A DNA stretch of 64,000 bases from positions 66,359,591 to 66,423,590 of the forward strand of contig CM067298.1 of the NCBI GenBank assembly GCA_034231615.1, given 5' to 3'. The position numbers were made by a program, and so were the translations under genes. This DNA comes from Meghimatium bilineatum. Taxonomy: Eukaryota > Mollusca > Gastropoda > Stylommatophora > Philomycidae. The notes under the pieces were generated by a model that did not search any database, was not told where the DNA came from, and saw nothing but the letters and a program-made list of their open reading frames with translations. Shown here in pieces: positions 96-57,510 of this stretch (position 1 is its first letter; every line of letters begins with the position of its first letter).

Positions 96-333
96 CTGGT
101 TCGATTTTTCCTTCACTTGGAGGTAGGCCAAACATGTTGACTTGCATTAAAAGCTCCTGAAATTTTTCCTTTGGCCAGTATCGCTGGTCATTAATCTCTT
201 CTCCCTTACGCTGATAGAAGCGTATAAATAAATACTCGCTGAATATTGGTCCCATTGATCCAGGAGGTGGCCAGGTGCATGACTCTAGCAATAATGGTAT
301 GATTGGTTTGTTTAGACTAACTGCCAAGTTCAC
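96..333 (-). CDS. Exon 21, TIR domain second part (3' boundary uncertain)
   Basis: Acceptor TTATTATCAG at 334. Residues 1131-1209 continue the [29 protein letters not shown], then [10 protein letters not shown] possible donor G|GTACTA follows at 95. If it is not used, translation reads 16 more unremarkable residues to a TAG at 46-48, giving about 1225 residues. The window edge prevents a decision. Confidence 0.82.

Positions 334-57510: not shown

Follow-up and report, generated by a model that had tools for sequence, protein, structure and literature searches.

A predicted ARM-like/coiled-coil/Death/TIR protein gene, probably of the ecTIR-DC family 6 kind, in Meghimatium bilineatum

The 64-kb stretch of Meghimatium bilineatum DNA analyzed here (64,000 nucleotides of contig CM067298.1, referred to below as the window) contains most of one animal gene, which is predicted to encode a large signaling protein of the cell interior. 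To judge by the gene and the repeats, the introns are long and the DNA is of animal type. On the minus strand, from position 57510 down to 96, 21 exons join into 3544 nt that encode 1181 amino acids with 0 stops. The protein model consists of 847 residues of helix-favoring composition, a coiled-coil exon of 77 residues, a Death domain (PF00531), and a TIR domain (PF13676), in this order. The domain order, the coiled-coil pattern, the Death and TIR domains, and the lack of any stretch of membrane-helix grade are all demonstrated in the translated model. Judged by the published domain set, the gene probably encodes a cytosolic ARM-like/coiled-coil/Death/TIR protein of the kind classed as ecTIR-DC family 6. 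One point against this family assignment is that the ARM-like nature of the helical region is unnamed by Pfam. The exon-mapped model provides a concrete protein for asking whether a TIR that is coupled to a Death domain cuts NAD+ or only scaffolds, and it allows one to ask whether the solenoid is related to Melted.

Coiled coil, Death domain, and TIR domain

The coiled coil is encoded by exon 17 (9313..9544, minus strand; acceptor 4.6, donor 6.9). By a simple heptad measure this exon scores 0.673, a value reached by none of 2000 shuffles (shuffle maximum 0.418), and its 77 residues hold eleven heptads in a single register with hydrophobic residues at 16 of the 22 core places. Matches to Pfam and NCBIfam coiled-coil entries were treated as unspecific. 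By a simple threshold for membrane helices, 0 windows of 19 residues have a mean hydropathy of at least 1.6, the highest being 1.41.

The Death domain is divided between exon 18 (6701..6864; acceptor 4.4, donor 2.3), which holds its first part, and exon 19 (5239..5348; acceptor 0.6, donor 10.1), which holds the second, both on the minus strand. PF00531, with a cut-off of 22.6 bits, scores 26.8 bits on exon 18 alone, 41.7 on the joined Death-TIR part, and 40.0 on the full model; exon 19 alone has no Pfam match. In a search of the PDB that returned 32 matches for this part of the protein, the Death domain is closest to p75NTR (E 3e-6), followed by NRADD (0.11) and UNC5 (0.2), and MyD88 (1.3), matched through its Death domain, is the last of the 32 rows.

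The TIR domain begins in exon 20 (4329..4588, minus strand) and is completed in exon 21 (96..333, minus strand). PF13676 (TIR_2) scores 64.6 bits on exon 20 alone, 90.4 on the joined part, and 84.9 on the full model against a cut-off of 28, whereas exon 21 alone has no Pfam match. The NCBIfam model of a retron-linked TIR protein, which has a cut-off of 600, is matched with 22.8 bits, and this indicates a TIR and nothing more. With phmmer, the TIR matches a bacterial protein, 3h16 (E 6e-6), SARM1 (E 1e-5), and AbTIR (E 0.003); SARM1 is the sole animal TIR among the 32 PDB matches, and no MyD88 TIR occurs among them. When prokaryote genomes were scanned for close relatives of this TIR, 4 pattern matches came up and 0 of them were confirmed. 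The second Pfam family, PF01582, reaches 16.5 bits, under its cut-off of 21.3. This family largely represents the clade that unites the TIRs of TLRs and MyD88, with SARM1 in another clade; six TIR clades are described as eukaryote-only and uncharacterised, and several of these occur widely in molluscs and other non-model animals (PMC13142454).

At the level of single residues, exon 20 ends with Glu 1102, which phmmer aligns with the Glu of the SARM1 HKE stretch, the catalytic position, which we take to be residue 642 of SARM1. The Trp of the SARM1 WP stretch is likewise aligned with a Trp in the slug TIR. The Trp that contacts ligand in SARM1, numbered W71 in PMC7075850 and placed four residues before the Glu, is without a counterpart; it falls inside four SARM1 residues that the query lacks, and an Asn occupies the place four residues before the Glu. 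The same source states that the catalytic Glu is present in over 70% of TIRs without tracking reported activity, and that it is rare in MyD88 TIRs. The order of coiled coil, Death domain, and TIR that an earlier note had read from the same DNA agrees with the heptad test and with both Pfam matches.

Exon structure and trust in the gene model

The chain of exons was rebuilt using generic scores for splice sites together with a codon model. It consists of 21 minus-strand exons with matching phases, the number that the earlier note had proposed: the ends at 57510 and 96 agree, the phase matches at 20 of 20 junctions, and the acceptors are all AG (20/20), with GT at 19 of the 20 donors and a GC donor in exon 10. 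Exon 1 (57245..57510; donor 11.0) opens with an ATG at 57510, and an in-frame stop lies 10 codons upstream of it. At the other end, the gene is open within the window, as exon 21 either stops at 46-48 or splices onward at 96 and leaves the window. The 16 exons from 6 to 21 (38829 down to 96) make up 897 residues without a stop and carry the domains.

The first 16 exons, all on the minus strand, encode the helical region. After exon 1 come exon 2 (55065..55227; acceptor 11.4, donor 1.1), the end of which is uncertain, exon 3 (50660..50796; acceptor -0.7, donor 7.1), with an uncertain start, exon 4 (45807..45954; acceptor 3.6, donor 6.2), exon 5 (43821..43957; acceptor 5.5, donor 10.5), and exon 6 (38721..38829; acceptor 8.7, donor 2.7). 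The central part of the region comprises exon 7 (35610..35743; acceptor 6.6, donor 6.3), exon 8 (33735..33879; acceptor 2.6, donor 7.7), exon 9 (29696..29850; acceptor 6.3, donor 7.7), exon 10 (28897..29026; acceptor 8.1, GC donor 6.2), and exon 11 (24438..24574; acceptor 3.8, donor 5.9). It is followed by exon 12 (22648..22739; acceptor 13.0, donor 3.5), the end of which was picked from several donors, exon 13 (20624..20827; acceptor 4.0, donor 4.1), exon 14 (18438..18586; acceptor 10.3, donor 9.1), exon 15 (16022..16237; acceptor 5.2, donor 3.5), and exon 16 (9709..9926; acceptor 9.8, donor 7.6). A perfect (TA)68.5 microsatellite occupies 20013-20149 within an intron.

The joins of this model differ in their support. 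Those between exons 18 and 19 and between exons 20 and 21 are supported beyond splice scores because joining raises the Pfam Death and TIR_2 scores, and all others rest on splice scores and phase. The weak splice sites are the donor of exon 2 (1.1), the acceptor of exon 3 (-0.7), the donor of exon 18 (2.3), and the acceptor of exon 19 (0.6), and both the end of exon 12 (donor 3.5) and the start of exon 13 (acceptor 4.0) were selected from alternatives. The GC donor of exon 10 counts as a further weak point. The phase match of exon 2 is no evidence, because this exon was selected as the best in-phase bridge between exons 1 and 3, being the top-scoring single in-phase candidate there.

By themselves, splice and codon scores are a weak control on the gene model and are not decisive. 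At an intron penalty of -18, the best untrained chain scores 154 on the minus strand and 115 on the plus strand, which has a transposase gene. After training, the chain scores are 192 (minus) and 45 (plus), a gap that is biased because the model was trained on these same exons. For 11 of the 21 exons, the share of open AG-GT intervals on the plus strand with equal or higher scores ranges from 1/942 (exon 17) to 87/1068 (exon 15), the comparison set including the transposase gene. A tblastn search of the window for a second copy of any exon gave no match better than E 4.7.

More permissive settings were discarded: lax intron penalties yield chains of 69, 40, 33 exons and more, many pieces of which are repeat-derived. 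The candidate exons that were dropped, given here as an incomplete list, fall into several groups. Those at 41623-41703 (codon score of about 9, acceptor 4.8, donor 3.5), 40069-40102, and 42739-42767 were not kept, since exons 5 and 6 join in phase when all three are omitted; 41623-41703 could still be genuine should a partner exon exist. Between exons 1 and 3, the intervals 56794-56821 (strong splice sites, 9 residues), 57025-57100, and 51522-51609 were dropped, as was 47096-47155, which lies inside a tandem repeat at 46866-47162 made of two copies of a 148-base unit with 78% matches. Two more, 24774-24845 and 7649-7686, have strong splice sites and codon scores below zero. Finally, 6323-6411 and 6025-6124 were dropped, since exon 18 joins exon 19 without an intermediate and the Death match runs across that junction.

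The transposase gene lies on the strand opposite to the main gene, in intron 15/16, as an open frame of 616 residues at 10676-12526 (+). It matches Pfam DDE_Tnp_1_7 with 226 bits together with a zinc finger, and we take it to be piggyBac-like. Flanking it are two inverted pairs of 19-20 nt, both imperfect (10150/13153 and 10445/12779), which may represent its termini or have arisen by chance.

The helical front region

Residues 1-847 have a helix-favoring composition with 5% Pro+Gly, which describes composition and not structure. The earlier note had counted about 870 helical residues; the helical character of the front agrees in composition, and the length before the coiled-coil exon is 847 residues. 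The Pfam domain search that it had proposed places Death and TIR above their cut-offs and the helical repeat below: on residues 285-847, INTS7_N scores 21.7 bits, under a cut-off of 42, and it is absent from the full-model results at E 0.01. A PDB sequence search with the same residues gave 11 matches at E up to 10, none of them a SARM1 chain. Nine of the 11 rows are matches to the DNA primase large subunit over residues 447-517 (exons 9-11, 29850 down to 24438) with E 0.005-0.017, and these were set aside as short and probably due to chance.

Part of the helical region bears a suggestive resemblance to the ARM region of Melted/VEPH1, the query here being a provisional human VEPH1 ARM sequence. 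The resembling stretch begins in exon 13, continues through exon 14, and ends in exon 15, covering residues 616-742 with 25% identity (31 of 124 BLAST columns). The alignment scores 20.6 bits; among 500 shuffled versions of the helical region the highest score is 4.4. Rescaled to a database of the size of the PDB copy, the E value of the alignment is about 0.002. This likeness serves as a lead only, because the VEPH1 letters are provisional and the protein was chosen for a likeness already noticed. According to PMC6734325, an armadillo-type fold is predicted at 57-337 of Veph1, which has no identified paralogue. VEPH1 ends in a PH domain according to that source, whereas the model here ends in a coiled coil, a Death domain, and a TIR; Pfam at E 0.01 finds no PH domain in the full model, and the end of the gene may lie beyond the window.

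A bolder reading, which we consider unlikely, is that the helical front is partly an ARM solenoid of the Melted/VEPH1 type fused to a coiled coil, a Death domain, and a Glu-bearing TIR, in which clustering of the TIR would fall to the coiled coil and the Death domain. If true, the combination of a Melted-type solenoid, a coiled coil, and a Death domain would constitute a third way of gating a TIR, besides those of SARM1 and the plant receptors.

Relatives, mechanism, and alternative readings

The ecTIR-DC families were reportedly defined by Gerdol in 2017. These proteins seem to be missing from vertebrates and to be widespread among invertebrates (PMC6321704), and family 6 expression is elevated in mussel gills (PMC5549309). 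A protein of the clam Loripes with a long ARM-like N-terminal region, a central Death domain, and two TIR domains is described as characteristic of family 6 (PMC6836662). That source writes 'two N-terminal TIR domains' for those that follow the Death domain, and in our reading 'N-terminal' is a slip for C-terminal. The slug model shares with family 6 a Death domain and a TIR in one protein, the lack of a membrane segment, and a long N-terminal region, which is ARM-like in family 6. It differs in that the clam member has two TIRs, whereas here one TIR is present before the window ends, and in its coiled coil, which goes unmentioned in the available portion of the published description. In Aplysia, five MyD88-like proteins are described, three of them with an armadillo-type fold, although the printed locus names of these three include a duplicate (PMC9334734); a TIR, a Death-like domain, and an armadillo-type fold thus occur in one protein there, a set similar to that found here. 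The accessible parts of the ecTIR-DC literature found contain no functional tests of these proteins. The earlier note had placed the architecture between MyD88 and SARM1, which is fair as anatomy; the architecture itself is not new, because ARM-like, Death, and TIR parts in one protein have been published for family 6 and for the Aplysia MyD88-like proteins (PMC6836662, PMC9334734).

A working mechanism can be proposed from the order of the parts. The long helical solenoid would bind an upstream partner or ligand, acting as a sensor or docking arm, and the coiled coil would keep the protein permanently dimeric or in a higher oligomer. Upon activation, the Death domain would recruit Death-domain partners through like-with-like contact, and the clustered TIRs would then either recruit further TIRs or act on NAD+. 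The earlier note had assigned the assembly step to the Death domain, which is reasonable, and the coiled coil could fill this role just as well. NAD+ cleavage by the predicted TIR is possible. We judge a scaffold or adaptor role to be likelier than that of a SARM1-like NAD+ hydrolase, because one of the two named SARM1 ligand residues is missing.

The hydrolase alternative, in which the helical region holds the TIRs apart until the coiled coil and Death domain unite them, so that NAD+ is cut and the cell dies or signals, concerns the same gene with another TIR function and so overlaps with the family 6 reading. We regard it as doubtful, though the strongest of the alternatives. The slug protein resembles SARM1 in having a putative helical-repeat region ahead of a TIR with a Glu at the catalytic position; its TIR matches 3h16, SARM1, and, more weakly, AbTIR, the SARM1 Glu and WP Trp are aligned, and PF01582, largely the TLR/MyD88 clade (PMC13142454), remains below its cut-off. 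It differs from SARM1 in its coiled coil and Death domain, in the absence of the ligand Trp (W71 of PMC7075850), and in the lack of a SARM1 match for residues 285-847, and Pfam finds no SAM domain, either in the full model at E 0.01 or in the three scanned parts at E 1. The Glu is a poor discriminator, being common to most TIRs irrespective of activity according to PMC7075850. The SARM1-like autoinhibition that the earlier note had advanced is unsupported: residues 285-847 lack a SARM1 match, Pfam gives no SAM domain, and one of two ligand residues is missing. Descent from MyD88 is less probable still: a MyD88 copy with an added front, acting as a TLR adaptor, would account for the order of Death then TIR, the Aplysia proteins with this domain set are termed MyD88-like (PMC9334734), and the clam authors speculate on a role in TLR signaling (PMC6836662). 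This origin is improbable given about 850 extra front residues and a coiled coil, a Death domain that matches p75NTR, NRADD, and UNC5 ahead of MyD88, a TIR with no MyD88 counterpart among the 32 PDB matches, a closer PDB resemblance of both domains to other families, and a Glu that is rare in MyD88 TIRs (PMC7075850).

The least probable alternative, to which we give very little weight, divides the model into two adjoining genes, a helical-repeat gene of exons 1-16 and a coiled-coil/Death/TIR gene of exons 17-21. The joins among exons 15, 16, 17, and 18 are based on splice scores and phase only, and the intron of about 6 kb between exons 15 and 16 contains the transposase gene. Against such a division, the phases match, exons 15-18 have acceptors of 5.2, 9.8, 4.6, and 4.4 and donors of 3.5, 7.6, 6.9, and 2.3, and an equal domain set has been published in one protein for family 6 (PMC6836662). 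The single cytosolic protein of the family 6 kind is the reading that we prefer.

Several minor elements accompany the gene. An Rfam search of the window found nothing. Likely retrotransposon remnants lie at 2799-3083 (+), 44663-44992 (-), and 62465-62860 (-), with reverse transcriptase/RNase H matches that are all below the Pfam cut-offs, and a weak Myb/SANT-like fragment is present at 63659-63937 (+), with 19.7 bits against a cut-off of 27.
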